In this document: piece by piece, positions 11,821 through 36,559 of the stretch | Layout: the number at the start of each line of letters is the position of its first letter | Position numbering within the stretch: position 1 is the first letter of the stretch | From: Sinomonas sp. R1AF57 | GTDB lineage: Bacteria > Actinomycetota > Actinomycetes > Actinomycetales > Micrococcaceae | NCBI RefSeq assembly: GCF_002224485.1 | Contig: NZ_CP022463.1 | Location: forward strand, 1,014,644-1,078,643 | Direction of reading: 5' to 3' | DNA length: 64,000 bases | Notes under the pieces: generated by a model | The model's input: only the letters and a program-made list of their open reading frames with translations | The model's database searches: none | Told to the model about the DNA's origin: nothing | Translations under genes and position numbers: made by a program

Positions 11821-11883
11821 TTGTCCAGTCCCTTGTCCACGTCCCACCGGACCTGTCCACGTCCCCTCTTCAGGAGCGCATCC

Positions 11884-12471
11884 ATGACCGACACCTGGCT
11901 CATCGTGGGCCTCGGCAACCCGGGCCCCGAGTACAGCGGCAACAGGCACAACGTGGGGCAGATGGTCCTCGACGAGCTCGCGGGCCGGATCGGCGGGAAG
12001 TTCACCTCCCACAAGGGAGCGCGCGCCGTCGTGCTCGAGGGGCGGCTGGGGATCGGCGGCTCGCGCGTGGTGCTGGCCAAGCCCCTGACGTACATGAACG
12101 TCTCGGGCGGCCCGACGTCCTCGCTCGCGAAGTACTACGGGATCGACCCCGACCATGTCATCGCCGTGCACGACGAGATCGACATCCCCTTCAACTCCAT
12201 CAAGCTCAAGCTGGGCGGTGGGGAAGGAGGCCACAACGGCCTGAGGGACATCTCCAAGGCGCTCGCCACGAAGGACTACCTGCGGGTGCGCGTGGGGGTG
12301 GGCAGGCCTCCGGGCCGGATGGACGCGGCCGACTTCGTGCTGCGCGACTTCGGCACAGCGGAGAGGAAGGAGCTCCCGTTCCTCCTCGACGAGGCCGCCG
12401 ACGCCGTCGAGGCGCTCGTCCGCGACGGCCTGCTCGACGCCCAGCAGCGATTCCATCCGGCCAAGGCGTGA
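11884..12471 (+). CDS. pth: Peptidyl-tRNA hydrolase
   Basis: It cleaves the ester bond of peptidyl-tRNAs released from stalled ribosomes. It has 195 residues, the usual length. Key motifs are [18 protein letters not shown] with the catalytic His, [19 protein letters not shown] with the catalytic Asp, and the [13 protein letters not shown] substrate loop. The ATG at 11884 follows AGGAGCGCATCC. It follows rplY across a terminator. The gene at 12584 begins 112 bases downstream in the same direction. Confidence 0.96.
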
Positions 12472-12583: not shown

Positions 12584-15307
12584 ATGGGGATCAAGCTCGA
12601 CGTGCCCGGGTCAGGGCACCTCGTCCGCGAGGCCAGGGAGAGGTCGGCCGACAGGCTCCGCTGGGCGCGGACAGTCCGCGGCAAGGAGATCGCGGAGGCC
12701 ATCGCCGTGCTCCGGGATCCGAGGTCCTACGGCGTCGTGCTCACCGGTGACGCGAGCCTCGGCAAGTCTGCCGTCGCCTCCGCCCTCGTCTCGGAGCTCG
12801 ATGCCACCGCGCACACCGTCCGCCTGCGCAGCACGATCGTCGGTCGGGAGACGCCCTACGGCGCTCTCGCCCTCCTGCTCGCCCGCCTCCCCGAGGTCGA
12901 CCAGGGCGACCCCGGGTCGATCATGCGCGGCATCCTCAAGCTGCTCGCGGCGGATGCGGGAGGCCGCATGTCGGTCGTCGCGCTCGAGACGGCCAACAAC
13001 CTCGACGAGCTGAGCACGGCGACGCTCGTCAACGTCATGGTGACGGGCACGTCGAAGCTCATCATCGTCGCCGACCGGGCCAGCGACCTCCCCGTCGACT
13101 TCCACTGGATGATCGCCGAGGAGCGGCTCCGCGAGGTCCCGCTCGCCCCGCTCGCGCCGGAGCAGACCCTCTCTGCGCTCTCCGAGCTGCTCGGCGGGCT
13201 GGTGCCGCGCACGGTGGGCCTCCAGCTCCACGCGATGTCCCGCGGCAACCCGCAGGTCGCCCTGCTGACCGTCTCCGAACTCCTGCAGAAGGGACTCCTC
13301 GCCGAGGCCGACGGCGTGTGGAGGCTCTCGCCCGACGCGGACACGGGGTCGATCCGCCAGCTCGACGACCTGGTCCGTGCGAGGATCGAGCGGGAGCCGG
13401 CCGACGTCCAGACCGTCATCGAGGCGCTCGCGTGTGCGCGCCGCATCTCCCTCGAGCGGCTCGTCCTGGCGTTCGGCGGCGAGGTGATCGCGCGCATGGA
13501 GGACGCCGGGCTCATCGCCGTGGACGAGGGCGGGCGCCATTCGACGGCGCTCACCGACCCCCTCGTCGGGGACGTCGTGCGCGGTTGGCTCTCGGTGCCA
13601 CGGAGGCGCGAGCTGCGCAGGCTCCTCCTCGCAGACGGAGAGCCTCCCCTCGAGGTGATCACGACGGTCGAGCTCCTCGGCCTCGCCGCCTGGACCAGGG
13701 AGTGCCACACGCCGCTCCCCGTCGCCCACGCGGTCGCCGCCGCCGCCGCGTCGCTGCGCCTCTACGACCCCGGGTTCGCCCTCGAGTGCCTCGACAGCGT
13801 CGAACGCGAGCCCTCGACCTGGCCCACCGTCCAGCGGCTCAGGGCGCGCGCCTCCCTCGCCCTCCAGCTCCCGCGCCAGGCCCTGCATTACCTCGAAGAC
13901 GTGACCGAAGAGGAGCTCGACGAGCTCACTCCCACTGCCGCGGCCAAGTTTGCCGTCTCCCGCGCGGAGGCGACGCGATGGGTCCCGGGGCGGGGCGGGG
14001 AGGTCGCAGGACTGCTCGCGGACGCCCGGGGCGAGGTGCTCCTGCGCATCGGCATGGGAGGGGCGGACGACGCCGAGGCGCGCCATGCCATGGCGCTCCT
14101 GGACCTGGCCGAGTTCGAGCACGCGGCGTTCACCGGGGACTACGCCGGCGTCGTCGACCGCCTCGAGGCCATGGCCGCAGGCAGGGGCGCGCCCGACGAC
14201 GAGCTGCGGCTCATCGCCGCCTGCATCCTCATGGAGGCACGCACCGTGCTCGGCCGCGAGCAGGAGGCGCTCGCGCTCATGCACGAGATCGCGAGCCAGC
14301 TCGACCGCCACCCCACGTCCGCGCGCCTGCGGCACGAGTACGGCTCGCGAGCGTTCATCGTCCTGCTGTACAACGGGCACTGGCGCCAGTGCCTCGCCCT
14401 CCTGAAGGGGATGCCGCAGTGGCCGCTCGCCCGCCTGCGCACTGCCGGGGCGTCGGTGGAGCTCGCGATGGGCCTCGCCTACGTGTACGCGGGGCGGGGG
14501 AGGGACGCCCTCTCCTACCTGCTCTCCGCGACAGCCCTCCTCGAACAGCAGCCGGTCCTGAACTCGCTGGGCTCCGCCTACGCCGCGACGGCGTTCGCGT
14601 ACGCCCAGCTGGGGGACGCCGTCGGCGCCCGGCTGTGGCTTTCCCGACTCGATGGGCTGGCCCTTCCGAGCAGCTCCGCAGCCCAGACCGTCACCGAGTT
14701 CTGCGCAGAGATGGCGAGGCGCTGGATCGGCGATCCGGGCGCATCGCGCCGGCTCGTGGCCTCAGCACAGGAGGACATCCTGCGCGGTCGCTGGAACCGG
14801 GCGGGGATCAAGCTCGTGGGTGCCACCGTCGAGGGCGGCCCGGAGGAGCTCAGGCTGCTCGAGGCGGTGTGCGCGCGCCGGCAGGGACCCCTCGCGGAGG
14901 TCGGGCTGTTCCTCGCCCGCGGCTCCCGCACCGGTGACCTCGCGGAGCTCACCCGTGCGGCCGACCTCGCCTCCAGCCTCGAACTCGACGCGCTCGAGTC
15001 CCGCTGCGCCGCCGTCGCCCTCGAGAAGGCCAGCGAGCAGGGCGACACCGTCACCCTGCGCCTCATGCAGGCCCGCCTCGACGCCCTCGCCGGACGGCTG
15101 CCGCTCCTCCCCGTGGCGCCGAGCAGGGCCCTGCCGGTGCTCACCATGCGTGAGCGGGAGGTCGCCGTGCTCGCGGCGAAGGGGACCTCGAACCGGAAGA
15201 TCGCCGAAGACCTCGGGCTCTCGGTGCGCACGGTCGAAGGCCACCTGTACCAGGTGTTCGCCAAGCTGTCGGTCTCGACCCGGAGCGAGCTGGCAGGCAT
15301 CCTGTGA
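12584..15307 (+). CDS. Large LuxR-family STAND ATPase regulator, first of pair 1
   Basis: This 907-residue cytoplasmic regulator is of the LAL/MalT type: an N-terminal ATPase module, a helical TPR-like middle and a C-terminal LuxR DNA-binding domain. The P-loop GDASLGKS is at residues 55-62. The Walker B position reads VVALETANNLD (131-141), so the usual double Asp is missing. The HTH at the C-terminus has LTMREREVAVLAAKGTSNR and SVRTVEGHLYQVFAKL. The ATG at 12584 has GGAGG just upstream; an in-frame ATG at 12548 is the alternative. The next regulator follows 22 bases later. It most resembles the gene at 20187 in its active-site change and HTH ending. The ligand and targets are unknown. Confidence 0.88.
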   Translation: MGIKLDVPGSGHLVREARERSADRLRWARTVRGKEIAEAIAVLRDPRSYGVVLTGDASLGKSAVASALVSELDATAHTVRLRSTIVGRETPYGALALLLARLPEVDQGDPGSIMRGILKLLAADAGGRMSVVALETANNLDELSTATLVNVMVTGTSKLIIVADRASDLPVDFHWMIAEERLREVPLAPLAPEQTLSALSELLGGLVPRTVGLQLHAMSRGNPQVALLTVSELLQKGLLAEADGVWRLSPDADTGSIRQLDDLVRARIEREPADVQTVIEALACARRISLERLVLAFGGEVIARMEDAGLIAVDEGGRHSTALTDPLVGDVVRGWLSVPRRRELRRLLLADGEPPLEVITTVELLGLAAWTRECHTPLPVAHAVAAAAASLRLYDPGFALECLDSVEREPSTWPTVQRLRARASLALQLPRQALHYLEDVTEEELDELTPTAAAKFAVSRAEATRWVPGRGGEVAGLLADARGEVLLRIGMGGADDAEARHAMALLDLAEFEHAAFTGDYAGVVDRLEAMAAGRGAPDDELRLIAACILMEARTVLGREQEALALMHEIASQLDRHPTSARLRHEYGSRAFIVLLYNGHWRQCLALLKGMPQWPLARLRTAGASVELAMGLAYVYAGRGRDALSYLLSATALLEQQPVLNSLGSAYAATAFAYAQLGDAVGARLWLSRLDGLALPSSSAAQTVTEFCAEMARRWIGDPGASRRLVASAQEDILRGRWNRAGIKLVGATVEGGPEELRLLEAVCARRQGPLAEVGLFLARGSRTGDLAELTRAADLASSLELDALESRCAAVALEKASEQGDTVTLRLMQARLDALAGRLPLLPVAPSRALPVLTMREREVAVLAAKGTSNRKIAEDLGLSVRTVEGHLYQVFAKLSVSTRSELAGIL

Positions 15308-15329
15308 GGGCCGGCCCCGGGAGCCGGAG

Positions 15330-17972
15330 GTGAAGACCGAGCGGGTGGTGGGGCGTGTCCGCGACGTCGAGCGCACCACCGCGCTGCTGCGGCGCCCCGG
15401 GACCGCCGCGGTCCTCGTCATGGGGGAATCCGGCTACGGGAAGTCCATCCTGCTCGACGCGACCGCCCGGGCGTTCGACGGCGAGCTCGAGCCCCTGCGC
15501 ATCCACGGCAGTCCCGCGCTGGCCAAGGTCCCGTTCGGGGTGCTCGCGCCCTTCCTCGGGGGCCTGCCCGCTGAGGAGGCAGGTTCCCGGGTCGAGGTCC
15601 TCCGGGCGTTCTGGCGCCAGGTCGAGGACCTCACCCGGGTCCGCGAGCGCGGCCTGCTGCTCGTGATCGACGATGCCCACGAGCTCGACGACTCCTCGAG
15701 TGAGGTCGTGGCCGAGGTCGTGTCGGCGCGGTGGGCCAAGGCCATCGTGGCCGCTCCGAGCGGCGCCGCGCTCCCGAGGCCGCTCCGCGAGCTCTGGCTG
15801 GACGGCGGGGTGGAGCGCCTCGACCTCGTCCCGCTGCGCCTCGAGGAGGCGAGGGACTACCTCGAGTCCACGCTCCTGGGCCGGTTCCTCCCGTCGGTGG
15901 TCCGGGTGCTGTGGCAGGAGTCCAATGGCAACCCGCTCGTCCTCGGCAGCCTCGTGGACGAAGCGCGCCGCGAGGGCTCCCTGATCCAGCGCGGGGGAAC
16001 CTGGATCCTGGCCGGCGAGCTCCCACGGCGGGCCGACGGGCTGCTGGGGCTGGCCCGTGCGCAGATCGCGCGGCTCTCCGCCGAGGAACGGGACTGCCTG
16101 AGCCTCATCGTCGTCGCGGAACCGGCGCCGCTCGAGCTCGTGGAGCGCGAGTGCAGCCCGGAATCGGTACGGGAGCTGGTCGCCAAGCGCCTCGTGCGCC
16201 AGCCGGAGGGGGCCCACGGGGTCCTCCGCCTCAGGCACCCGGTCTACGGCGATGCCCTCGTCCAGCTCATCCCCCGCACCCGGGCGATCCAGCTGCACCA
16301 GTCCGCGGCGGCGTACGTGCATGAGCAGACCTCGACCGCTGAAGGGCTCCTCCGAGCCGTCTCCTGGGCCCTCGACAGCGGCTTCGAGACCGATGACGCC
16401 ACGCTCCTGCGCGCGGCCTCCCTGTCCGTGCGGCTCTTCGAGAACGCGCTCGCCGAGCGCGCCGCGAAGGCGGTCCAGGAGCCCCAGGCGCGAGCGCGCG
16501 CCAAGGAGATCCTCGGACAGATCGCGTTCAACCGCGGCGAGTACGCGGAGGCACAGGCCGTGCTCGCCCCGACCGTGGGGCGGGACGGCAGGGTCCGCCC
16601 CGGGCTCGGCGGCTGCCTCATCTGGCTCATGAGCCGCGCCCTGCTCCGCCACGACCTGACGGCAGTGCGGAGGGACGCCGAGGCCCTGGGCGCGGGGGAC
16701 CCCGGCACCGGGCGCCTCCTTGCCCTGGCCGCGGACTTCCTCAAGGGCGACGTCGACAGCGTCAGGACTGGGCTCGTGACGCTGCTGGCCGAGGAGCCGG
16801 AGTACGACGACGAGGCCGGCGTCGTGCTCGCTGTCCTCGAGGCGCAGGTGGCCGTCGCGCAGGGCCGCCCCGTGCACGCCCTGGCCACGGTGCGGAAGGC
16901 CGTCGAGCGCCTCGCGGGGGACAGCTCGGCCGATCCCTTCGTCGTGGGCCTCGGCGCCGCGAGCATGGTGGCTGCGGCGCAGGCCGCGGGTGACTGGGCG
17001 GCGGCAGAGGACGCGCTGACGCGGTACCTGACCGCATCGAATGCCGGCCTCATCTGCGCGGGGGCCGCGGCGGAATGCGCCCGCGGACTCGCGCTCGTGC
17101 GGCGCGGGCGGTTCCGGGAGGCGTGGCCCCTCCTCGCCGTCGCCGTCGACGGCCTGCGCGAGCGCGACCCGCAGCGCGTCCTGCGGCTCGCGGAGGCCCT
17201 GGCCGCCTACGCCGGGGCCGGCGCCGGGCGGCAGGCCGAGGCCGAGGACCTCATGCGCGAGGCGGCGGCGGGGGACGGGCAGGGCGCGGGCTTCGCGGAG
17301 CCGCTCGCCGACCTCTTCCTCGCGGCTGCAGCGCACTCCCTGGTCCCTGACGCCCGCAGGCGGCGCGCACTGGCCAAGCTCGTGGCCTCGGCCGAAGCGG
17401 GGACGAGGCAGGACGTCGCGCTGCAGGCAGAGCTCCTCTGGTTCGAGGCGGGAGGGCGCGATCGGCTCGGCCGGCTGGGACGGCTCGCCGGAGGCGTCGA
17501 GGGCCCCTGGGCCCTGGCGGCCGCCACCCTGGCCGACGCCCTCGTGGAGGGGGAGGCGGAGGACCTCCTCGCCGCCGGCGAGCAGCTCTTCGCTGCGGGA
17601 TACGAGCGGTACGCCCGGGAATGCTTCACCGAGGCGTCGAAGGCGCTTGACCGGGGGCTGCGCAGAAGCGACGCGAGGGCAGTGTGGGCGCGGAAGACGG
17701 CGTGCGACACGCTGCTCGGCGACGAGGGCGGTCCCATCGCCGCCACCGACCCGCGTTCGCTGACCAAGCGCGAGCGCGAGATCGCCTCGTTCGCCGTGGC
17801 GGGGCTGAGCGACCGGGAGATCGCCGACAGGCTGACGGTCTCGGTCCGCACGGTCGAGGGCCACCTCTACCGCGCCTACGCGAAGCTCGGCGTGACCAGC
17901 CGGGAGCAGCTCGCCTCGTCACTGGGCCGCAGCCGCCAGAGAACCGAGTACACCGCCGGCGGGGCCAAGTAG
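15330..17972 (+). CDS. Large LuxR-family STAND ATPase regulator, second of pair 1
   Basis: This is an 880-residue LAL-type regulator. The P-loop GESGYGKS (32-39) and Walker B LLLVIDDAHELD (109-120) are both canonical, so this is the one member of the four with an intact ATP site. A long helical repeat region follows, and the C-terminal LuxR HTH contains LTKREREIASFAVAGLSDR and SVRTVEGHLYRAYAKLGV. The GTG start (MKTERVVGRV) lies 22 bases after the preceding regulator, with GGGAGC and GGAGG nearby; GTG codons at 15345 and 15348 are alternatives. The two genes are almost certainly cotranscribed. It is the counterpart of the gene at 22918. Confidence 0.88.
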   Translation: MKTERVVGRVRDVERTTALLRRPGTAAVLVMGESGYGKSILLDATARAFDGELEPLRIHGSPALAKVPFGVLAPFLGGLPAEEAGSRVEVLRAFWRQVEDLTRVRERGLLLVIDDAHELDDSSSEVVAEVVSARWAKAIVAAPSGAALPRPLRELWLDGGVERLDLVPLRLEEARDYLESTLLGRFLPSVVRVLWQESNGNPLVLGSLVDEARREGSLIQRGGTWILAGELPRRADGLLGLARAQIARLSAEERDCLSLIVVAEPAPLELVERECSPESVRELVAKRLVRQPEGAHGVLRLRHPVYGDALVQLIPRTRAIQLHQSAAAYVHEQTSTAEGLLRAVSWALDSGFETDDATLLRAASLSVRLFENALAERAAKAVQEPQARARAKEILGQIAFNRGEYAEAQAVLAPTVGRDGRVRPGLGGCLIWLMSRALLRHDLTAVRRDAEALGAGDPGTGRLLALAADFLKGDVDSVRTGLVTLLAEEPEYDDEAGVVLAVLEAQVAVAQGRPVHALATVRKAVERLAGDSSADPFVVGLGAASMVAAAQAAGDWAAAEDALTRYLTASNAGLICAGAAAECARGLALVRRGRFREAWPLLAVAVDGLRERDPQRVLRLAEALAAYAGAGAGRQAEAEDLMREAAAGDGQGAGFAEPLADLFLAAAAHSLVPDARRRRALAKLVASAEAGTRQDVALQAELLWFEAGGRDRLGRLGRLAGGVEGPWALAAATLADALVEGEAEDLLAAGEQLFAAGYERYARECFTEASKALDRGLRRSDARAVWARKTACDTLLGDEGGPIAATDPRSLTKREREIASFAVAGLSDREIADRLTVSVRTVEGHLYRAYAKLGVTSREQLASSLGRSRQRTEYTAGGAK

Positions 17973-18273
17973 TCCTCGCGGCAACGGCGTAAGAAAAACA
18001 AGTACCAAGTACCCATGTGCTCCCGCCGCCACGGTGTCACAGTGGATGTGTAGCCGGAGCCGCGAGGCTCAGTCTACAGACCCGAAGGACAGGGTCGGCG
18101 ACGTCGGAACCTCCCCGAGACCAAGGTTCCTCCCCCCAGCCGTCGCCGGCCCTCCTTTGGTGTCTGCAGGGGTTCGTGACCAGTCGTGGGACAATGGATT
18201 GCGCCATATCCGTATGCCGTAATTGATAGTGCTGCCGCCGAGCAGCTTTGTCCCGCCCGAAGGAGCCCAGCCC
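17973..18273 (+). other. 301-base gap before sufS
   Basis: No coding potential stands out. The first part is unusually A-rich (TAAGAAAAACAAG) and contains a direct repeat AAGTACC-AAGTACC at about 18001-18014. An imperfect inverted repeat built on GAGACCAAGG and CCTTTGGTGTC lies at about 18117-18166. A candidate promoter lies at 18199-18227. Confidence 0.5.
18199..18227 (+). promoter_or_regulatory. Candidate promoter of sufSU, TTGCGC-17-ATTGAT
   Basis: TTGCGC (18199-18204) and ATTGAT (18222-18227) are 17 bases apart in a locally AT-rich stretch, 46 bases before the sufS start. The -10 match is partial. Confidence 0.35.
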
Positions 18274-19620
18274 GTGGCCCTGGTCAAGACCCCCATGACC
18301 CTCCAGCACGCCCCGTCCGGCGTGGACGACGCCGAGGCCGAGCGCATCCGCAATGACTTCCCCGCGCTGGCCCAAGAGGTCCACGGCCACCCCCTCGTCT
18401 ACCTCGACTCGGGCGCCACGAGCCAGAAGCCACGCAGCGTGCTCGAGGCCGAGCAGGAGTTCTACGAGCAGCGCAATGCCGCCGTGCACCGCGGCGCGCA
18501 CGAGCTCGCCGTCCGCGCCACGGACGCCTATGAGGACGCTCGGGCCACCGTGGCGCGGTTCGTGGGGGCCGATCCCGATGAGATCGTGTGGACCTCGAAC
18601 GCGACCGAGGCCATCAACCTGGTCGCCCAGTCGCTCGCGACCGCCTCGCTCTGGGCCGAGCGCGGCCGCGGCGGCGCGGACACGCGCCGCCTTGCGATCG
18701 GGGCGGGCGACGAGATCGTCGTCACCGAGCTCGAGCACCACGCGAACCTCATCCCGTGGCAGGAGCTCGCGTTCCGCACGGGAGCCACGCTGAGGTGGAT
18801 CCCCGTGGACGACTCGGGCCGGCTCCGGATGGACGAGGCCGAACGCGTGATCGGACCCCGCACCCGCGTCCTCGCCTTCGCGCACGCCTCCAACGTCCTC
18901 GGCTCGGTCGCCCCGGTCCAGGAGCTTGTCGCGCTGGCCCGGCGGGTCGGCGCCTTCGTGGTCCTCGACGCGTGCCAGTCCGCCCCGCACCTCCCGCTCG
19001 ACCTGGCGGCGCTCGACGTGGACTTCGCGGCCTTCTCGGGCCATAAGATGCTCGCCCCGACCGGCATCGGCGCCCTCTACGGGCGGCGCGAGCTCCTCGA
19101 CGCCCTCCCGCCGTTCCTCGTGGGCGGGTCCATGATCACGACCGTGACCATGGAGAGGGCCGAGTACATGCCGGCGCCGCAGCGGTTCGAGGCAGGGACC
19201 CAGCGCATCTCGCAGGCCGTCGCCTTCGCGGCCGCAGTGGACTACCTCTCGCACACCGGCATGGAGCGCATCCACGCGTGGGAGTCCCAGCTGGGCGCGC
19301 GGCTCGCCGAGGGCGTCGCCTCCATCCCGGGGGTCCGGCTCCTGGGCCCGGCGCCGGGGGAGGAGTGGCACGGCAGCGGCCGCATCGGCCTTGCGGCGTT
19401 CGACGTCGAGGGCGTCCATGCGCACGACGTCGGGCAGTTCCTCGACAGCGCCGGGATCGCCGTCCGCGTCGGCCACCACTGCGCCCAACCCCTGCACCGG
19501 CGGCTCGGCCTCACCGCCTCCACCCGGGCGAGCGCCTACCTGTACACCACGAGCGGGGACGTCGAGGCCTTCCTCGGCGCTCTCGCCGAGGTCCGCGGCT
19601 ACTTCGGGGCGACGCGATGA
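18274..19620 (+). CDS. sufS: Cysteine desulfurase SufS
   Basis: This is a PLP enzyme that takes sulfur from cysteine for iron-sulfur cluster assembly. It has 448 residues. Visible features are LVYLDSGATSQKP near the N-terminus, NAAVHRGAHEL, TSNATEAINLVA, ELEHHANLIPW with the PLP-contacting His, FSGHKMLAPTGIGALYGR with the Schiff-base Lys, and RVGHHCAQPLHRRLG with the active-site Cys. The GTG at 18274 has AGGAG 8 bases upstream; an ATG at 18295 is possible. It overlaps sufU by 4 bases. The usual sufB, sufC and sufD neighbours are absent from the window. Confidence 0.95.
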   Translation: MALVKTPMTLQHAPSGVDDAEAERIRNDFPALAQEVHGHPLVYLDSGATSQKPRSVLEAEQEFYEQRNAAVHRGAHELAVRATDAYEDARATVARFVGADPDEIVWTSNATEAINLVAQSLATASLWAERGRGGADTRRLAIGAGDEIVVTELEHHANLIPWQELAFRTGATLRWIPVDDSGRLRMDEAERVIGPRTRVLAFAHASNVLGSVAPVQELVALARRVGAFVVLDACQSAPHLPLDLAALDVDFAAFSGHKMLAPTGIGALYGRRELLDALPPFLVGGSMITTVTMERAEYMPAPQRFEAGTQRISQAVAFAAAVDYLSHTGMERIHAWESQLGARLAEGVASIPGVRLLGPAPGEEWHGSGRIGLAAFDVEGVHAHDVGQFLDSAGIAVRVGHHCAQPLHRRLGLTASTRASAYLYTTSGDVEAFLGALAEVRGYFGATR

Positions 19621-20060
19621 GCCTCGACTCGCTGTACCAGCAGCTCATCCTCGAGCACGCGAAGCAGCGCCACGGCAGTGGCCTCGCGGGCGAGCCGGGC
19701 CCGCACGAGGGGCAGTCGCACCAGCTCAACCCCGTGTGCGGCGACGAGGTGACGGTCCGCGCCCAGGTCGCGGACGGCGTCGTACGCTCGCTGCGCTGGG
19801 AGGGGGCGGGCTGCTCGATCTCGATGGCCTCAGCCTCGGTCCTCCACGACATGGCGGAGGGGACACGCACCGACGAGTTCGCTGCGCTCGTGGATGCCTT
19901 CCGGGAGATGGTGCGCTCCCGCGGGACGGTGGCCGCGGACCCAGAGGTCCTGGGTGACGCGGCGGCGTTCGAGGGCGTCTCCCGCTACGCGGCACGCGTC
20001 AAGTGCGCCATGATCGCGTGGGTTGCAGCCGAGGACGCGGTGCGCAAGGCGCAGAGCTGA
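19617..20060 (+). CDS. sufU: SufU zinc-dependent sulfurtransferase
   Basis: This is the partner that accepts persulfide sulfur from SufS in Gram-positive bacteria. It has 147 residues. The three zinc and sulfur-accepting cysteines are present in NPVCGDEVTV, GAGCSISMASASV and ARVKCAMIAW, with the Asp ligand in CGD. The ATGA overlap with sufS shows translational coupling. It is a typical SufU, longer than IscU and carrying the insert between the second and third Cys. The next gene is the third large LuxR regulator, after a 126-base gap. Confidence 0.94.
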   Translation: MSLDSLYQQLILEHAKQRHGSGLAGEPGPHEGQSHQLNPVCGDEVTVRAQVADGVVRSLRWEGAGCSISMASASVLHDMAEGTRTDEFAALVDAFREMVRSRGTVAADPEVLGDAAAFEGVSRYAARVKCAMIAWVAAEDAVRKAQS

Positions 20061-20109
20061 CCCATTGCCCCGTGCAGATCCGCCACTCGGTGGATTTTCG
20101 TGAGGCCTG

Positions 20110-20142
20110 TTGTACCGTCAAGCGCACGGCTACCCTAAGGGT
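20110..20142 (+). promoter_or_regulatory. Promoter/operator region before the third LuxR regulator
   Basis: An inverted repeat ACCCT-A-AGGGT at 20132-20142 overlaps a possible -10 (TACCCT). TTGTAC at 20110-20115 could serve as a -35 but with only 15 bases of spacing. The palindrome is a candidate operator 45 bases before the start codon. Confidence 0.35.
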
Positions 20143-20186
20143 GCGCCGGACCATTGAGCCATGGTGGCCGGCGCAGGAGGCTAAGC

Positions 20187-22943
20187 ATGGGGACAATGGC
20201 CTATGAGTCCGTCGCTGACAGTGGCGTGGCCGAGGGGCACGGCACAGAGGCGAAGGGCCGCCAGACGGAGCGCGTCCGCTGGTCCGTTCTGGCACGGCCG
20301 GCCGAGACCGAGGCTGCGCGCGCCGCGCTGACCGCGTCCGGCTCGCTCGGGATCGTCATCACGGGGCCGCCGGGAGTGGGGAAGTCCTTCCTCGCCAGCG
20401 GCATCGCGGGCACGTTCGGCCGGGGGGCGCACACAGTCCACATCAGGAGCACCGAGGCCGCGTCGCGCGCAGACTACGGGAGCCTGGGCTTCCTCCTGGC
20501 CCGGCTGCCGGCCGGGGCGACCGACTCCCGCCCGGGGCTCCTCCTGGCTGCCGCGGACATCCTGCGGCGCGACGCCCAGGGCAGGCCGGTCGTCCTCCTC
20601 ATCGAACTCGCCGCGCCCCTGGACGAGGCGAGCGCCGGCGTCGTGCTGCACCTGCTGCTCTCCCACACGGCCCGCGCCATCGTCGTCGCCCAGCGCGCGG
20701 CCTTCCTCCCGCCAGACCTGCTCAGGCTGCTGCGCCGCGGACGGCTCACCGAGGTGCCGCTCGCGGGAATCGGTGTCCAGGACCTGAAGAGGCTCGTCGT
20801 CGGCCTGCTCCACGGAAGAGTCACCGCCGGCGCGCTCGGCGCGCTGCACGAGGCGTGCCACGGCAATCCCGCCGAGCTCCAGTCGATCATCACCGAGGAA
20901 CGCGAGAGCGGGAACCTCCACCTCCACTCCGGCGTGTGGACCCTCAGGGGGCCGATCGTGCCGCGCCACGGGACAGGGTACGACGACCTGCTCAGGGCGC
21001 GCTGGGCCCGCGAGGCGCAGGACGTGCGCGAGGTGATCGAGCTGCTGTCCGTGGCCAGGCGGGTGCCGCTCACGGACCTCGCGGACCTCTTCGGCAGCGA
21101 CGTGCTCGTGGACATGGACGACGGCGGGCTCATCCTCACCGAGGCCGGCGACCGACGCTGCGTCATGCTGCGCGAGCCGCGCATGGCCGAGCTCGTGCGC
21201 GCCCGGCTCAGCGCCGAGCGCTCGCGGGAGCTGATCAGCCTGCTCACGGGTCGGGACGCCGGCCGGCCGCCCGAGGCGCTCAGCCGCTCGGAGCTCGTCG
21301 CCGATGCGGAATGGGCCCTGCGCTCCGGGGACACGATCTCCCCCGAGGTGGCCGTCGCGGCCGCCCACGCCGCCGTCGCACTGTTCGAACCCGAGAAGGC
21401 GCTGCGGTTCACCGGCCTCGTCCCGGAGCAGCACGCCCTGCGCGCCGTCGCCGCCCGCCACCGGGCCGCCGCGCTGTCGCTGCTCGAGCGGACCGGAGAG
21501 GCGCTCGAGGTGCTCCGCGGCGTCCGCGAGGACGCGCTCGAGAGGGTCAGCGCCGTCGACGCTGCGCGGCACGCGGTCGCGCTCGCCGCACTCCTGCGGA
21601 CGATGCCGGGACACGGGAGGCCCCTCGAGGTCCTCGCGGACGCCCAGAGGGCCCTTGCCCTGCGAGAGGGGAGCGAGGGCGGTGTGCGGCCCGGCGGCAC
21701 GGTCCGTGACGGGCCCGACAGCCTGGCCGAGGCCGCAGAGGTCCTCGAGTCCGCCCGCTACGCGGAACTGTGCTTCGCCGGGGACTTCGCCGCCGCTATG
21801 CCGGGACTCGAGGATGCCATGGCGAGGCCGGGGGTGAGCGAGCGCTTCCGCCGCGCCTGCACGGTCATGCTCGCCGACGCGTGGAGCGCGTGCGGGCGGG
21901 AGGACGACGCCGAGCGGCTGCTGGACAGCCTCGGCGACCCGCAGGACTGGGCAACCGGCCAGGACGCCGACGCGTTGGCCGGGAGCGCCTTCACCGTCTG
22001 GCTGTGGACCGGCCGGTGGCAGCGGTGCGTCGCGCTGACGGCCCACTACCTCGAGCACAACGCCCAGCGGCTCGCGTTCCGCGGCGGCATAGCCGAGATG
22101 GCCCTCGGGCTCGCGTACGTGACGGCCGGACGCGGGGACCTCGCAGCCGATCCGCTCATGGCAGCGTGCGCGCAGCTCGAGCGCACCCAGGCCGGGAACG
22201 CCTTGGCCACGGCCCAGGCAGCCGCCGCCTTCGCGTTCGCCCAGACGGGAGAGCGCGCCGAGGCCGAACGGTACCTCGCGCTCGCCGCCCAGAGCCGCCG
22301 CCCGACCTCCTGGCGCCTCGAATGGACCGCCGACTTCTGCGCGTCCATGGCGCGCCGCTGGCTCGGCGATCCGGAAGCCTCCGCGGCGCTGCACCGCCTC
22401 GCCGAGAAGGACGAGGCCGCGGGGCGCGTCTCCGCGGCCGGCATCGCCCTCTTCGGCGCCAGCGTCCCCGGGACCGAGGAGGAGTTCCGCGCGATCGAAC
22501 GCCTTGCCGCCCAGCGCCAGGGCCCCCTCGCGATGGTCAGCGGCCTCGTGGCCCAGGGCAGCCGGCTCAGGGATGCAGGCCTCCTGCTCAATGCCGCGGA
22601 GCTCGCCCACGGCCTGCTGCTCGACGCGGTGGAGGCCCGCTGCGCTGCGCTCGCCGTCGACTTCGCGCGCATGGCCGGCGACCAGACCCGCGCGGGCGAG
22701 GCCCAGGTGCGTCTGGACCGGCTCACGCGCACCTTGCCCGCCCTGCCGATCACCCCACAGGTTCCTGCGCCCATGTTGACCGAGCGCGAGCACGAGGTGG
22801 CCCGGCTCGCGGCCAACGGGGCCAGCAACAGGGAGATCGCGGCCGCGGTAGGACTGTCCGTGCGGACAGTCGAAGGACACCTGTACCAGGTGTTCACCAA
22901 ATTGGGGGTGACGTCTCGTGGCGGTCTTGCCGGCTTGGTATGA
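20187..22943 (+). CDS. Large LuxR-family STAND ATPase regulator, first of pair 2
   Basis: This is a 918-residue LAL-type regulator. The P-loop GPPGVGKS is at residues 60-67. The Walker B position reads VVLLIELAAPLD (135-146) and lacks the catalytic Asp pair, the same defect as in the gene at 12584. The long middle is helical, and the C-terminus carries a LuxR HTH with LTEREHEVARLAANGASNR and SVRTVEGHLYQVFTKLGV. The ATG at 20187 has a perfect AGGAGG 6 bases upstream; an in-frame start at 20154 is less likely. It overlaps the next regulator by 26 bases. Confidence 0.88.
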   Translation: MGTMAYESVADSGVAEGHGTEAKGRQTERVRWSVLARPAETEAARAALTASGSLGIVITGPPGVGKSFLASGIAGTFGRGAHTVHIRSTEAASRADYGSLGFLLARLPAGATDSRPGLLLAAADILRRDAQGRPVVLLIELAAPLDEASAGVVLHLLLSHTARAIVVAQRAAFLPPDLLRLLRRGRLTEVPLAGIGVQDLKRLVVGLLHGRVTAGALGALHEACHGNPAELQSIITEERESGNLHLHSGVWTLRGPIVPRHGTGYDDLLRARWAREAQDVREVIELLSVARRVPLTDLADLFGSDVLVDMDDGGLILTEAGDRRCVMLREPRMAELVRARLSAERSRELISLLTGRDAGRPPEALSRSELVADAEWALRSGDTISPEVAVAAAHAAVALFEPEKALRFTGLVPEQHALRAVAARHRAAALSLLERTGEALEVLRGVREDALERVSAVDAARHAVALAALLRTMPGHGRPLEVLADAQRALALREGSEGGVRPGGTVRDGPDSLAEAAEVLESARYAELCFAGDFAAAMPGLEDAMARPGVSERFRRACTVMLADAWSACGREDDAERLLDSLGDPQDWATGQDADALAGSAFTVWLWTGRWQRCVALTAHYLEHNAQRLAFRGGIAEMALGLAYVTAGRGDLAADPLMAACAQLERTQAGNALATAQAAAAFAFAQTGERAEAERYLALAAQSRRPTSWRLEWTADFCASMARRWLGDPEASAALHRLAEKDEAAGRVSAAGIALFGASVPGTEEEFRAIERLAAQRQGPLAMVSGLVAQGSRLRDAGLLLNAAELAHGLLLDAVEARCAALAVDFARMAGDQTRAGEAQVRLDRLTRTLPALPITPQVPAPMLTEREHEVARLAANGASNREIAAAVGLSVRTVEGHLYQVFTKLGVTSRGGLAGLV

Positions 22944-25761
22944 GCCACATCAGGGGGGTCCGGCGTGGCCCCCGCGCGGATCAGAGGGGACCGAGGGGCC
23001 CAGAGCGCTCGGCTCGGCGGCCGTGGTCGACGCCGCCGTGGCGTCGCTGAGGTCCGGGGATCTCGGCGCGGTCCTTGTCGTCGCGGAGGCTGGCGCCGGG
23101 AAGGCAGACGTCGCCGAGTCGATCGCCGGGGCGCTCGAGGGGGAGTTCGCCGTCGTCCGGCTGCTGGCGAGCCACGCCCTCAAGGGGGTGCGGCACGGTG
23201 CGCTCCTGTCGATCCTCGACTCGCTGGAGCCCGCCGACTTCCTGGCACCCCACGGTGCGGCCGGAACAGCCAACGGGAGCACCGCCAACGGGAGCACCGC
23301 CAACGGGCGTGCCCGCGCCGCGGCCCCGGACCGGGGCATGGCGGGGCATGTGGCCGTACTGCGGTCGCTGTGGGCCATGGTCGACACGAAGGCGCGCGAC
23401 GCCGGGCGCCCCGTGCTCATCGTCGCTGAAGACATGCACTACGCGGACGAGGGAACCGCATCCGTCCTCGCCGAGGCCGTCTCCTCGCGATGGGTCAAGC
23501 TCGTGGCCACCGCCCGCCTCCGGCCGGGCATGCCGCCCGGCCTCCTCGAGCTCTGGCACGACGGCCTGGGCGAGCGGCTGGAGCTCGGGCCCATGGACCT
23601 GGCTGGAAGCCACGCCATGTCCGAGGCCCAGCTCGGGGGTGCCGTCTGCAGAGCGGCCGCGGCCGTCCTGCACCATGTGAGCGGAGGCAGCCCCGAGCGG
23701 CTCCCGCTGGTGATCGGCGAGGCGCTGGGCAAGGGAGCCCTCGTCGCCCGGCGGGGCATCTGGGTCCTCGCCGCCGACTTCGTCAGCAGCGGGGCGGCCC
23801 TCGAACAGCACGTCCGCGCCGACCTGGACACGCTCAGCCCGGCGCAGCGCTCGGGCCTCGCGCTCATCGCGCATGCGCAGCCCCTGCAGGAACAGTCCGC
23901 CCGGGCCCTCATTCCGGAACACGTCCTGATCGAGCTCGGCGAGCGCGGCTGGCTCGCCGACCGGGAGGACGGGTTCGTGCGGATCCGTTCGGCGCTCGTC
24001 GCCGACGCCATCCGGATGCTCACCTCGATCCCGCGCAAGCTCCAGATCCACCAGAAGCTCGAATCCCTGGGCGAGCCGTGGGGTCCCGACCGGCCCAATG
24101 CGCTCGGGCGCATCGCGCTCGCGCTGGACGTGGGCGCCGAGGTGGGCGACGCCCAGCTGGCCGCGGGTGCCGAGCTCGCCGTGCGCCAGTCCGAGAACGC
24201 CCTCGCCCTGCACTGCATCAGGCTCATCGGCGACGAGGGCATCCGCTCGCGGCTGCGCGGGGCCCGTGCCCGCGCGCTCTTCAACAGGAGCGACTACTCG
24301 GCATGCCTCACGTCCCTCCTCTCGGGGCCGCGGCGCAAGACGGACGCCCACGACCTGCTCGTCGGAACCCTCCTCCTCTCGCACGTGCGCTCCGTCCTCG
24401 GCCAGGCCCACGCCAACCCGGGCGACGCCGACCAGCTCGCGGCGATCGCCCGGGAGCTGCCGCCGGACTTCCCGCCGGACCGGGCAGACGGCCCGCGCTA
24501 TGCCATCGAGCGGAGGGCACGCCTGCTGAAATCCATGGCGCTCGCCTACGGGGGAGACTTCCATCGGGCGCTCGCCGCCGACCCCGCCCACGGGCGAGCG
24601 TTCGACGGCGGAGGGGAGCCCGCCGTCGAACGCGCCATCTGGTCCCTCATGCGGGCGGAGGCGGACATCGTGGGCGGCAGGTTCGAGGGCGCGATGCGCT
24701 CCGCCGGCGCGGTCCTGGCCCGGCCCGTGGAGGATGACGAACACTATCCCCTCGAGGGGCACGCGCTCATGCGCTATCTGGTCGCGGCGATCCACGTGGG
24801 CTCCTGGGAGGCCGTCGACTCCGCGGTCGAGGCCTACGGGACCGGGCGCACGTGGCCGGTCGTGGTCTGCGGGCCGGCCCTGTACACCGCCCAGGCCTAC
24901 GCGCTGGTCCGCCAGGAACGCGTCGACGAGGCCCTCCAGGTACTGCCCGAGATCATCGAGTGCCTCCGCGTGGGGGACCCGTACAAGCTCCTCGGCCTCA
25001 CCCTCGCCCTCGCCGCCTATGCTGCGGCGGCCGCCGGGCGGACCGAGGAGGCCCAGACGTGGCTCGAGGAGGCGGAAGCCGCGGCCAACGTGGGGCGCGC
25101 GCTGACCGGCTGGCTCGCCCGGCTGCACCGGATCGCCGCCGAGGTCCGGCTGGGGGTGCCCGACGCCGCGGGCCGCCTCGTCGAGTTCATCGAGACGCTG
25201 CGCCAGGACGGGCACGTCGGGATCGAGATGGCGGCGCGCGCGGTGGCCCTGGAACTGGACCTCGAGGCCGGCCACGGCCCCGATCCGCTCGAGGCCGCCG
25301 AGCTGGCGCCCGCGTGCGAGGGCCGCTGGACGGCCGCGATGGGCGCCTGGGCGCGAGCGATCGTCAGCGGCAAGGCCGAGGACCTCATGCAGGCCGGCGA
25401 GCTCCTGCGGGAGCTGGGCCTCCTGGGACGCGCGCGGAGGGCCTTCGCCCGCGCAGCGGCCGCCTTCGACGACGCAGGCGACCGCGCGAACGCGCGCCTC
25501 GCCGGCCAGGCAGCGCGCCGCTGCGAGGCCCCCGGCAGCCCGGCCCCCGCCGACGACGCGGGCGAGGCGGTGCTCGCCTCATTCCAGCTCACCCCGCGGG
25601 AACAGGACATCGTGGGGCTCGCGCTCGACGGACTCAGCGACCGGCAGATCGCCGAGAAGCTCCACCTGTCCGTGCGTACCGTCGAAGGGCACCTCCACCG
25701 CAGCTATGCCAAGCTCGGCGTCGCCAGCCGCGCCGAACTCGCGGCCGCTGTCGAGGACTGA
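22918..25761 (+). CDS. Large LuxR-family STAND ATPase regulator, second of pair 2
   Basis: This is a 947-residue LAL-type regulator. The P-loop position reads AEAGAGKA (56-63): the first Gly and the final Ser/Thr are both replaced, so nucleotide binding should be weak or absent. The Walker B position VLIVAEDMHYAD (166-177) is near normal. Residues 117-130 are a TANGS repeat made by a 15-bp tandem repeat. The C-terminal LuxR HTH contains LTPREQDIVGLALDGLSDR and SVRTVEGHLHRSYAKLGV. The GTG at 22918 lies inside the previous gene with GGGGGTG upstream; a later in-frame GTG near 23023 is possible. It matches the gene at 15330 in position and HTH ending. Confidence 0.85.
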   Translation: MAVLPAWYEPHQGGPAWPPRGSEGTEGPRALGSAAVVDAAVASLRSGDLGAVLVVAEAGAGKADVAESIAGALEGEFAVVRLLASHALKGVRHGALLSILDSLEPADFLAPHGAAGTANGSTANGSTANGRARAAAPDRGMAGHVAVLRSLWAMVDTKARDAGRPVLIVAEDMHYADEGTASVLAEAVSSRWVKLVATARLRPGMPPGLLELWHDGLGERLELGPMDLAGSHAMSEAQLGGAVCRAAAAVLHHVSGGSPERLPLVIGEALGKGALVARRGIWVLAADFVSSGAALEQHVRADLDTLSPAQRSGLALIAHAQPLQEQSARALIPEHVLIELGERGWLADREDGFVRIRSALVADAIRMLTSIPRKLQIHQKLESLGEPWGPDRPNALGRIALALDVGAEVGDAQLAAGAELAVRQSENALALHCIRLIGDEGIRSRLRGARARALFNRSDYSACLTSLLSGPRRKTDAHDLLVGTLLLSHVRSVLGQAHANPGDADQLAAIARELPPDFPPDRADGPRYAIERRARLLKSMALAYGGDFHRALAADPAHGRAFDGGGEPAVERAIWSLMRAEADIVGGRFEGAMRSAGAVLARPVEDDEHYPLEGHALMRYLVAAIHVGSWEAVDSAVEAYGTGRTWPVVVCGPALYTAQAYALVRQERVDEALQVLPEIIECLRVGDPYKLLGLTLALAAYAAAAAGRTEEAQTWLEEAEAAANVGRALTGWLARLHRIAAEVRLGVPDAAGRLVEFIETLRQDGHVGIEMAARAVALELDLEAGHGPDPLEAAELAPACEGRWTAAMGAWARAIVSGKAEDLMQAGELLRELGLLGRARRAFARAAAAFDDAGDRANARLAGQAARRCEAPGSPAPADDAGEAVLASFQLTPREQDIVGLALDGLSDRQIAEKLHLSVRTVEGHLHRSYAKLGVASRAELAAAVED
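23269..23307 (+). repeat. In-frame 15-bp tandem repeat inside the fourth regulator
   Basis: GCCAACGGGAGCACC occurs at 23269-23283 and 23284-23298, followed by nine more bases of a third unit. It encodes TANGS repeats in a loop between the P-loop and Walker B positions. Unit-number change would keep the frame. Confidence 0.85.
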
Positions 25762-26054: not shown

Positions 26055-27602
26055 ATGTCGTCAGCCCCGGCCGGTGCACGCCACTCGACTCTCATGCCCA
26101 CCGGCCTTCCCTTCACCCGGGACCACGCCACTGGCCTCGGCGCCTCCGGCCCGCTCAGGCGGGCCCTCCCACTCCATCCGGACCATGCGCGCATCGCCCG
26201 CTCGGCCGCGGCCTCGGCCTGGCCTCGCCGCTACGGCCTGGCACTGCGCGTGGTCGACACCGCCGTCGTCCTCGCAACGCTCTCCGTCGCCGCCGCCTCC
26301 GTGGCTGACAGCCCCAGTGCGCTGGCCCTTCTGGCAGCGCTCGCGGTCATCTGGCCCGTGGCCCTCGGCGCCTACCGCAGCCGCGAGCCCGCGGTCTTCG
26401 GCGCGGGGGCCGAGGAGTACCGCCGGGTCGCCACGGCGTCGGTCCACATCGTCGCGCTGCTGGCCCTCGTCGTCGTGCTCTCCGGGGTGGCGACGCCGCC
26501 GGCCCTCGTCGCGACGATGCTGCCCCTCGGCGTCGTGGGACTCCTCGCCGGACGGTGGGCGTCCCGCCGCTGGCTGACCCACGAGCGGGCCAACGGGCTG
26601 TGCCTCACGCCGGCCGTCGTCGTGGGGGAGCCCGAGGACGTCCGGTACGTGATCCGCCGCATCGCGGCGGCAGCCGGTGCCCCCTACAACGTCCTCGGCG
26701 CGGCGCTCCCGGGCGGCCGGCGCGGGCAGACCCTCGCGGTCGACGCCGAGCGCGTGCCCGTCCTGAGCTCGATCGACGACGTCGTGCGCACCGTCGCGCT
26801 GAAGAAGGCCGCGGCGGTCATCATCGCCGGGCCCGTCCCGGGCGGGAACCAGTACGTGCGGGAGCTCGGGTGGCGGCTCGAGGAGCACGACGCCGAGCTC
26901 GTCCTCGCCTCGTCCCTGACCAACGTCGCAGGTCCGCGCATCCACTGGCGCCCCGTGCAGGGGCTGCCGCTCATGGAAGTGGACCTCCCGCAGTACTCCG
27001 GCGGCAAGCATCTCGTGAAGCGCGGCATGGACATCGTCCTCTCCGCGGCGGCCCTCGCCGTGCTCGCCCCGGTCCTCGGGGTGCTCGCGCTCATCGTCAG
27101 GCTCGATTCGCCCGGGCCCGTCATCTTCCGCCAGGAGCGTGTGGGCCGGGGTGGAACCCCGTTCACCATGCTCAAGTTCCGTTCGATGGTGCACGATGCC
27201 GAGGCCCGCCGCACCGCGCTGGCGGAGCAGAACGAGGGAAGCGGCGTCCTGTTCAAGATGCGCACCGATCCGCGGGTGACCAGGTGCGGCCGGTGGATGC
27301 GCAAGTACTCGCTCGACGAGCTGCCCCAGTTCGTGAACGTCCTCATGGGGGACATGAGCCTCGTGGGGCCGCGCCCGCCCCTGCCCCGCGAGTTCGGAGC
27401 CTACGAGTCGTACACGTTCCGCCGGATGCTCATCAAGCCCGGGATCACGGGGCTGTGGCAGATCAACGGCCGCTCGGACCTGGAATGGGACGACGCCGTG
27501 CGGCTCGACCTCTACTACGTCGAGAACTGGTCCCTCACCGGGGACCTCATGATCCTGTGGCGGACGCTCAAGGCCGTCATCACCCCGGTCGGAGCGTACT
27601 GA
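26055..27602 (+). CDS. Polyprenyl glycosylphosphotransferase (priming sugar transferase)
   Basis: This membrane enzyme of 515 residues starts repeat-unit synthesis by moving a sugar-1-phosphate onto undecaprenyl phosphate. Four N-terminal helices (about 65-175) are followed by a CoA-binding-like soluble part, a further helix (VLSAAALAVLAPVLGVLALIV, 21 residues, shown here as VLSAAALAVLAPVLGV) and the catalytic domain. That domain has FRQERVGRGGTPFTMLKFRS, KYSLDELPQFVNVLMGDMS, LVGPRPPLP and PGITGLWQINGRSDL. The ATG follows AGAGGGGA. It is the first gene of a long same-strand operon. The sugar it transfers cannot be read directly. Confidence 0.93.
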   Translation: MSSAPAGARHSTLMPTGLPFTRDHATGLGASGPLRRALPLHPDHARIARSAAASAWPRRYGLALRVVDTAVVLATLSVAAASVADSPSALALLAALAVIWPVALGAYRSREPAVFGAGAEEYRRVATASVHIVALLALVVVLSGVATPPALVATMLPLGVVGLLAGRWASRRWLTHERANGLCLTPAVVVGEPEDVRYVIRRIAAAAGAPYNVLGAALPGGRRGQTLAVDAERVPVLSSIDDVVRTVALKKAAAVIIAGPVPGGNQYVRELGWRLEEHDAELVLASSLTNVAGPRIHWRPVQGLPLMEVDLPQYSGGKHLVKRGMDIVLSAAALAVLAPVLGVLALIVRLDSPGPVIFRQERVGRGGTPFTMLKFRSMVHDAEARRTALAEQNEGSGVLFKMRTDPRVTRCGRWMRKYSLDELPQFVNVLMGDMSLVGPRPPLPREFGAYESYTFRRMLIKPGITGLWQINGRSDLEWDDAVRLDLYYVENWSLTGDLMILWRTLKAVITPVGAY

Positions 27603-27667
27603 GGATGCGCTTCGGGCGGGCAGGCAAGGTGCCATCGGACCGGGTGGCCCACAGCATGGGAGGCAGC

Positions 27668-28873: not shown

Positions 28874-29865
28874 GCGTGCTTGCCGGAGCGGACGTCCTGG
28901 TCACGGGCGGGGCGGGGACCATCGGCTCGACGATCGTGGACCAGCTCCTCGACGCGGGCGCAGGGCGGGTGGACGTCCTCGACAACCTCGTGCGCGGGCG
29001 CACCCAGAACCTGTCCCGTGCCCTCGCATCCGGGAGGGTCCGCCTCATCGAGGGGGACATCCGGGACCGCGACCTCGTCCACGACCTCACCGTGGGCAAG
29101 GACCTCGTGTTCCATGAGGCCGCGCTGCGCATCACGCAGTGCGCCGAGGAGCCGCGGCTCGCGCTCGAGGTACTCGTGGACGCCACCTACACGGTGTTCG
29201 AGGCCGCGGCCCAGCACGACGTCGACAAAGTGGTGACGGCGTCGAGCGCTTCCGTCTACGGGATGGCGGACGAGTTCCCCACCACCGAGCGGCACCACCA
29301 CCACTCCAACGACACGCTGTACGGGGCGGCCAAGAGCTTCTCCGAGGGCCTGGCACGGAGCTTCCACAGCATGTACGGCCTCGACTCCGTCGCCCTGCGC
29401 TACTTCAACGTGTACGGGCCGCGGATGGACGTCCACGGCCTGTACACGGAGGTCCTCGTGCGCTGGATGGAGAGGATCGACGACGGCCGGCCTCCCCTCA
29501 TCTTCGGCGACGGGAGCCAGACGATGGACTTCGTCTTCACGGAGGACGTGGCCCGTGCGAACATCCTCGCCGCCGTGAGCGGCGTCCGCCACGGGGAGTA
29601 CAACGTGGCCAGCGGCGTGGAGACAAGCCTCCTCGCGCTCTCGGTGGCCCTGCTCGGAGCCATGAAGTCCGATCTCACGGTCGAGTTCGGGCCCGAGCGG
29701 GCCGTGAACGGTGTCCAGCGCAGGCTCGCCGACACCGCCGGTGCCCGACGGGACCTCGGCTTCGTGGCGCAGGTACCGCTCGACGAGGGGCTCCGGAGGC
29801 TCGTGGAATGGTGGCGGCCGCTGCGCGAGGAGATCGCGGCCGCGAGAGTGCTGGCTGCCCAGTGA
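28870..29865 (+). CDS. NAD-dependent nucleotide-sugar epimerase/dehydratase
   Basis: This 331-residue extended-SDR enzyme is probably a UDP-sugar 4-epimerase or similar. The cofactor loop VTGGAGTIGST is at residues 9-20, with DNLVRGR and GDIRDRDL following. The SSASVYG segment and YGAAKS with the Tyr-Lys pair form the active site. RYFNVYGPRMD and the DFVFTEDVARA segment are typical of sugar epimerases. A HHHH run precedes the active-site Tyr. ATGA overlaps the upstream oxidoreductase, and the next gene starts at a GTGA overlap, so it is translationally coupled on both sides. Confidence 0.88.
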   Translation: MSVLAGADVLVTGGAGTIGSTIVDQLLDAGAGRVDVLDNLVRGRTQNLSRALASGRVRLIEGDIRDRDLVHDLTVGKDLVFHEAALRITQCAEEPRLALEVLVDATYTVFEAAAQHDVDKVVTASSASVYGMADEFPTTERHHHHSNDTLYGAAKSFSEGLARSFHSMYGLDSVALRYFNVYGPRMDVHGLYTEVLVRWMERIDDGRPPLIFGDGSQTMDFVFTEDVARANILAAVSGVRHGEYNVASGVETSLLALSVALLGAMKSDLTVEFGPERAVNGVQRRLADTAGARRDLGFVAQVPLDEGLRRLVEWWRPLREEIAAARVLAAQ

Positions 29866-36552: not shown

Positions 36553-36559
36553 GGATCTG

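Follow-up and report, generated by a model that had tools for sequence, protein, structure and literature searches.

The window is a 64,000-nucleotide stretch of the 3.94-Mb single-contig genome of Sinomonas sp. R1AF57, and its locus of interest runs in the order prs, rplY, pth, A1, B1, an RNA hairpin, sufS, sufU, A2, B2, a sugar transferase gene and a polysaccharide cluster, with mfd beyond. A1 (12584 to 15307; 907 residues), B1 (15330 to 17972; 880 residues), A2 (20187 to 22943; 918 residues) and B2 (22918 to 25761; 947 residues) encode STAND-LuxR regulators. All features given with coordinates here lie on the forward strand. The four genes form the two A-B pairs around sufSU that the original prediction described, and the motifs it quoted are present; the proposed B2 frame shares its first 26 nt with the end of A2. 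Directly 5′ of the first pair lies pth (11821 to 12471), a conserved left border. The hairpin element (18076 to 18165), with a GAGACC-containing loop and a C-rich bulge, separates B1 from the open frame of sufS (18223 to 19620; Aminotran_5, PF00266), which is followed by sufU (19617 to 20060; NifU_N, PF01592). On the 3′ side of B2, a PF02397 gene (26055 to 27602), which we take to be a WbaP-like initiating sugar transferase, opens a surface-polysaccharide cluster. The remainder of the cluster (27603 to 42381) was assigned in part by Pfam, its outer limit and other open reading frames (ORFs) being set by eye. A Pfam scan of eight genes after B2 matched seven (sugar transferase, Gfo/Idh/MocA oxidoreductase, NAD-epimerase, DegT aminotransferase, hexapeptide transferase, polysaccharide flippase type and WsaF type) and left one without a match.

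The ATP-site motifs differ among the four proteins. A1 carries the P-loop GDASLGKS and the Walker B sequence VVALETANNLD, A2 has GPPGVGKS and VVLLIELAAPLD, B1 has GESGYGKS and VIDDAHELD, and B2 has AEAGAGKA and VAEDMHYAD. The A proteins had been said to lack the Walker B Asp pair; the second, catalytic acid is indeed gone (E-T in A1, E-L in A2), but the first is kept as Glu. Both B proteins keep Walker B (VIDDAH in B1, AED-MH in B2), as predicted. The P-loop of B2, described as lost, has given up its first Gly and the Ser/Thr but retains the Lys, so that “degraded” fits better. B1 is the only one of the four with both motifs intact, so that the first pair shows no strictly complementary ATP-site defects of the kind originally proposed, and in A2-B2 both members are defective.

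All four proteins end in a GerE helix-turn-helix (HTH) domain (PF00196; 50 to 54 bits against a cutoff of 23.5; residues 852 to 904 in A1 and 810 to 863 in B1). For AAA_16 (Pfam cutoff, 32.6), B1 (37.8) and B2 (32.9) score above the cutoff, and A1 (22.5) and A2 (20.2) score below it. AbsR2 is the top NCBIfam match of each protein, with a best score (102.1 bits, for B1) far below the 850 bits needed for the equivalog NF050132. The best match to the MalT equivalog NF003420 (537 bits needed) reached 34.6 bits, for B2, and covered the HTH only. PADLOC matches to anti-phage STAND defense systems at 0.01 were likewise confined to the HTH, besides a weak match to the A2 P-loop (mad8; E = 0.008), and leave a defense-system identity unsupported. 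AlphaFold2 models of A1 and B1 had mean pLDDT values of 90.2 and 92.1, and the STAND protein 6mfv was the best PDB match of both; MalT (8bob) ranked 2 for B1 and 13 for A1, amid many repeat and AAA+ proteins. As the TM-scores are 0.2 to 0.3, these matches of predicted models support a STAND-like fold class rather than a detailed structure. In both models, judged by strand order, the P-loop and Walker B each follow strands within one predicted NTPase domain.

Within the genus, for which we read 14 stretches besides the window, profile searches found A1 in all 15 genomes and A2 in 14. The order A1-B1-sufSU-A2-B2 is present in 14 of the 15 genomes, the window included, and the exception (G009) has A1-B1 and sufSU without A2-B2. 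Two frames are split and were left unmended, that of A1 in G005 and that of B1 in G003.

The pair is also found well beyond Sinomonas. Among 245 genomes of the family, 108 matched A1 at 1e-20 and 138 matched the B profile at 1e-60. Further stretches were then read (40, 40 and 36 usable), each of at most 20 kb; some neighbors are cut off, so distance and linkage counts depend on where the stretches end. A first alignment held 285 long ORFs from 95 loci and a wider set held 344, 8 and then 16 short or weak ORFs having been left out before the counts. The wider set contains 144 adjacent same-strand pairs in the fixed order A then B, with a median of 118 nt from the A stop to the B P-loop, and at least two pairs occur in 30 loci. 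Other neighbor orders are B then A, where the next pair begins, and A then A. In the family, the pairs span Sinomonas and 12 further genus groups; outside it, they occur in one group (g37) of a second family, f6, which confirms conservation beyond the genus. We found no report of such paired STAND-LuxR regulators in the open-access literature.

Phylogenies separate the two members. In the FastTree tree of 285 ORFs, 138 fell on one side (support, 1.0), all scoring better as B against Sinomonas profiles, and the other 147 comprised 138 with a better A score and 9 with a slightly better B score. The tree of 344 ORFs divided evenly, with 172 on the A side and 172 on the B side (support, 0.987). 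Two of the 144 pairs had gapped motifs and were dropped from scoring; among the remaining 142, the A protein lay on the A side in every pair and the B protein on the B side in 141. One doubtful pair (L165, group g23) had both genes on the A side, including one scored as B. An IQ-TREE quick search on 74 representatives united the A proteins of both families (support, 99) and likewise the B proteins (94), with a support of 71 for the B proteins of the host family alone, and placed ten solitary homologues from other families outside A and B, nearer to B. In the window, A1 clusters with A2 and B1 with B2, as expected of a duplicated two-gene module, and the opposite groupings were rejected by AU tests on a 30-row tree ({A1,B1}, P = 1e-5; {A2,B2}, P = 1e-110). 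On the evidence of these trees, the A and B lineages are paralogous and old, and since the A and B groupings each unite both families, the pair seems to predate the family split. Partners also agree in tier: 72 pairs join main with main and 70 join other with other, with no mismatch in 142. Within the main tier, A and B distances correlate at 0.93 (72 pairs), a figure that includes shared species history.

To compare ATP sites across pairs, we called a site competent if it had GK[S/T] and acids at both Walker B places, a criterion fixed after the first motif list. In the 142 scored pairs, only B is competent in 97, only A in 25, neither in 15 and both in 5, which leaves 122 with exactly one competent member. 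The P-loop Lys is kept in 140 A proteins and 114 B proteins, and an acid stands at the second Walker B place in 31 A proteins against 129 B proteins. As far as motifs can tell, the ATP-site asymmetry between A and B is firm; reciprocity of the defects is suggestive. A strict rule of one working site per pair was rejected. It accommodates the 122 pairs, but 23 of the 25 pairs with only A competent lie in one 24-row clade and 2 elsewhere on the pair tree (read off the tree), so that this state amounts to two role swaps, for which an independent-pairs sign test gives P = 0.5; the 15 pairs with neither site and the 5 with both also fall outside it. The pair tree requires at least 7 motif changes in A and 10 in B. 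The doubly defective pairs are A2-B2 of the window, five of group g32, and L144, L145, L114, L074, L077, L170, L035, L040 and L041, the last three being Sinomonas A2-B2 pairs that count as doubly defective only if Lys-to-Arg is taken as a loss. We make no claim about loss of a sensor Arg from A: the presumed sensor column has an Arg in 42 of 142 A proteins against 83 of 142 B proteins and, when the next column is allowed, in 75 against 83. The original prediction expected such motif changes in pairs rather than in single homologues. This held in part: two lone B-like genes (L142 and L180; lone within the stretch read) have a D-to-N change, as do unpaired extra A genes inside arrays, but both motifs are intact in all ten solitary homologues from other families.

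We then considered what adjoins the pairs, using the 110 loci outside the window with at least one pair. In 73 of these, pth lies directly upstream of the first A-B pair. A WbaP-like gene follows the last B on the same strand within 8 kb in 60 loci, from 13 genus groups and two families, mostly at 0.5 to 1.2 kb; the other 50 have no WbaP-like gene within 8 kb. One or both of the two genes stand beside the pair in 95 loci, and neither is in the stretch read in 15, six of them in group g7. Among fetched Sinomonas loci with A2-B2, the WbaP-like gene lies at 0.5 to 0.9 kb in 12 of 13; in G014 the read stretch ends early, and a genome search puts the gene about 4.8 kb from B2. G009, the genome without A2-B2, is also without a close WbaP relative (best match, 2.3e-80, whereas all 14 others have one at 6.2e-194 or better), a single case. 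The link of a WbaP-like transferase to the cassette is new here. When Sinomonas intergenic regions were aligned to look for an operator, the spaces upstream of A1 and A2 and downstream of B2 showed no clear LuxR box.

The same operator search brought up the hairpin after B1. By pattern, it occurs in all 15 loci of Sinomonas and in two of g9. Of the 89 sources searched with a first covariance model built from these 17 copies, 71 contain the element below 1e-4. We assessed covariation on 86 matches from 73 sources, in an alignment fitted to the model. The structure is satisfied in 92% of cells, and 20 of 24 base pairs have double-sided changes, with 300 double-change cells against 86.5 in shuffled alignments (0 of 500) and no more than 58 in slid controls. 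A MAFFT alignment of the 17 initial copies also has double changes at 7 pairs, with unbroken core stems. Because G-U pairs are frequent, the covarying positions speak for an RNA rather than a DNA palindrome. The window copy folded singly was not significant against shuffles (z = −1.24). The motif GAGAC is present in 83 of the 86 copies and CCCC in the bulge in 75. Fifty-eight copies lie within 1.5 kb after B (median, 326 nt), 13 precede A, and the remaining 15, of which one is on the opposite strand, lie elsewhere. At least four T's follow 10 of the 13 copies before A (e.g., in L102), and a simple scan found no terminator-like T run at the window copy. Rfam searches of the window stretch gave no match at an E value of ≤1 and none at the gathering score, and two relatives gave far subthreshold matches only. 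This covarying hairpin with a GAGAC loop and without an Rfam match is new here.

The element keeps company with B. A broader model found it in 128 of the 245 family genomes at 1e-4; of 297 genomes from the order, 19 matched at 1e-3, 15 belonging to the host family and 4 lying outside it with weak scores; ten f6 loci with a pair gave no match at 0.01. Of 104 genomes with a strong B, 103 have the element, compared with 19 of 34 whose B hit is weaker and 6 of 107 that give no B hit (Fisher's exact test, P about 1e-43, phylogeny ignored), where strong B means an E value below 1e-150, a limit set afterwards from a list scoring three candidates per genome. The window genome has a single copy at 1e-4. 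Some genomes have extra copies elsewhere, of which we read eight; by eye, one precedes a SARP-like gene (L195) and one a SulP-like transporter gene (L190), and the others have no clear target. A further candidate (G000:C1:181548; E = 1.6e-7 with the first model) has a loop without GAGAC, was not listed by the second model at 1e-4 and is not counted. Intrinsic terminators and attenuators, and the EAR of Bacillus eps, an EPS-linked leader RNA, resemble the element as GC-rich hairpins at the entry of a transcription unit; the element is set apart by its conserved GAGAC loop, its C-rich bulge and the absence of an Rfam match. The hairpin is a likely second control point of the transcription units, and it may act as an attenuator, a terminator or a small RNA.

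Several known regulators help to frame the pair. The LAL regulators MilR, PikD and SCO6993 (AbsR2) are like the four window proteins in size, N-terminal P-loop NTPase and C-terminal GerE HTH. An excerpt of PMC5015266 reports that the Walker motifs of MilR (GGPGCGKS and LVIAVDD) are intact and needed: K37A, K37R, D122A and D123A each cut milbemycin production by 98.5 to 99.5%, and S38A cut it by 87%. The same excerpt relates that the second Walker B Asp of PikD was without influence. Judging from the MilR mutants, comparable natural changes should disable a lone regulator of that kind. By the PikD result, loss of the second acid may instead matter little. Unlike MilR, the proteins studied here are two paralogues in a fixed pair with one NTPase degraded. 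SCO6992 and SCO6993 (AbsR1/AbsR2) were rejected as a known LAL pair: SCO6992 is, in an excerpt of PMC9705864, a 359-residue protein with beta-glucuronidase activity that runs in the opposite direction to SCO6993. The Escherichia coli STAND activator MalT, similar in fold through 8bob, cycles between two states, monomeric with ADP and oligomeric with ATP, and MalY holds it in a 2:2 complex (PMC10427625). This nucleotide cycle is our model for A-B, with the difference that MalT self-associates and is restrained by an unrelated protein, the available part of that source mentioning no paralogous partner. BldM-WhiI, described in an excerpt of PMC4125116 as a heterodimer of response regulators, is a precedent for hetero-pairing of transcription regulators, although not of STAND-LuxR type.

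The reading we favor, by a modest degree of confidence, is that A and B, as paralogous LAL-type STAND-LuxR regulators, cooperate in an A·B hetero-oligomer, one subunit of which is a pseudo-ATPase. This subunit, normally A, with its Lys kept and catalytic acid lost, would bind nucleotide and stay ATP bound, and the hydrolyzing subunit, usually B, would time assembly and action on DNA through the LuxR heads. From the MilR and PikD mutants and the MalT cycle, we infer a nucleotide-locked A and a switching B for most lineages. Two lineages would show the reverse, with a motif lost from B and a full Walker B in A. Heteromeric NTPases with dead subunits are familiar from ORC and the clamp loaders, which would share this division of labor among subunits with A-B and are not STAND-LuxR proteins. 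The output would most probably be the adjoining polysaccharide operon, starting at the WbaP-like gene, plus the cassette itself. The terminator-like hairpin, which follows B and in some genera precedes A, would be a likely second point of control at the entry of the unit, possibly by attenuation. In favor of this reading stand the separate A and B lineages, the matched tiers and distances, the close spacing, the motif asymmetry beside intact solitary relatives, the MilR mutants, the fold matches, the WbaP-like neighbor and the covarying hairpin that accompanies B. Against it stand the pairs with neither or both sites competent, a role swap of two events, the PikD result, the unpaired A and lone B-like genes, L165, the loci with neither pth nor a WbaP-like gene, the f6 loci without the hairpin and the extra hairpin copies in some genomes.

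The main rival to the heteromer is that A and B are two cotranscribed, independent homo-oligomeric LAL regulators, adjacent because both act on one operon rather than because they form a complex, with the NTPase of A acting without hydrolysis. Every protein does have the full domain set with its own HTH, doubly dead and doubly competent pairs occur, some extra A genes have no B of their own, and PikD tolerates loss of the second Asp, according to the excerpt of PMC5015266. On the other hand, independent regulators would hardly be expected to keep partners so strictly, with main-tier and other members never mixed in 142 pairs and A and B distances strongly mirroring each other (a match that includes shared species history), or to show A systematically degraded while its solitary relatives are intact. 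We consider this account somewhat unlikely.

Two other explanations turn on the motifs themselves. The 15 doubly defective pairs, scattered over about nine places on the tree by eye and including A2-B2 of the window and the five-member g32 clade, might suggest that ATP control is dispensable and the motifs are decaying at random under relaxed selection. The decay is directional, however, with A losing the acid and keeping the Lys in nearly all cases and B mostly doing the reverse, and long open frames are maintained across genera, which makes random decay improbable. The composite ATP site of the original prediction, built from Walker A of A and Walker B of B in a heteromer, fares worst and is very improbable. 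It would account for A proteins that keep Walker A and mostly lack the catalytic acid, and for B proteins that mostly keep Walker B and lack the P-loop Lys in 28 of 142 pairs. Yet in the 24-row clade in which B has lost the Lys, A is complete alone in 23 of 24; 97 pairs have a B that is complete alone and an A that is not; by strand order, the P-loop and Walker B of a protein fall in the same predicted domain; and in many pairs the defects fail to complement each other, 15 being doubly defective.

Returning to the hetero-oligomer, the larger picture is more tentative, and we regard it as possible but doubtful as a whole: a two-protein STAND switch, made of a locked pseudo-ATPase and a hydrolyzing timer with at least two role exchanges, and an attenuator RNA bracketing the operon, would together gate surface polysaccharide in the Micrococcaceae. 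The RNA element and the polysaccharide link are its most testable parts. Models of STAND regulators such as MalT assume a single protein that switches through its own ATP cycle. A conserved pair in which either member may give up part of that cycle would make it possible to ask which subunit must bind ATP and which must hydrolyze it, a question common to the NLR immunity proteins. For this large soil family, the cassette is a likely marker of surface-polysaccharide control, and it comes with a covarying RNA element that has no Rfam entry and is readily testable.

A covarying RNA hairpin with a GAGAC loop and a C-rich bulge lies at positions 18076 to 18165 of the window, between the regulator gene B1 and sufS. 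The same covarying hairpin is found at A-B loci of other genera, where it is likewise linked to the genes of the two paralogous STAND-LuxR lineages, A and B. A comparison with Rfam returned no family matching the GAGAC-loop hairpin. We treat the hairpin as a component of the A-B module.

Additional hairpin copies are located at a distance from A-B genes in eight loci (L188 to L195). By eye, a SARP-like regulator gene lies downstream of one such copy (L195) and a SulP-like transporter gene downstream of another (L190); for the remaining extra copies in these loci, the target was not evident. The hairpin is also present in six of the family genomes (genus groups g22 and g23) that have no match to the B profile at 1e-60.

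Elsewhere in the window, a minus-strand gene (43902 to 48629) encodes a large protein of the surface type, in which DMFA2_C, Big_5, and three stretches of DUF4082 occur; it is adjoined by a 993-residue open reading frame with VanZ (48642 to 51623, minus strand).

In group g24, two B-like proteins (L142, 7112 to 9823; L180, 8351 to 11098) are unpaired within the stretches read, and both carry an Asn in place of the second (catalytic) Walker B acid, with the P-loop intact. The tree puts both members of a tandem pair in group g23 (L165, 8537 to 13830) on its A side, and the upstream gene lacks every scored motif residue. Three g9 genomes (L067, L083, and L106) have a third STAND gene immediately downstream of the A-B pair; its product is more distant, has both motifs intact, and shows no LuxR ending in the part matched. 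The regulator arrays of group g32 (L103, L126 to L129, L132, L133, L136, and L137) include additional A-type genes, in orders such as A A B and A B A A.
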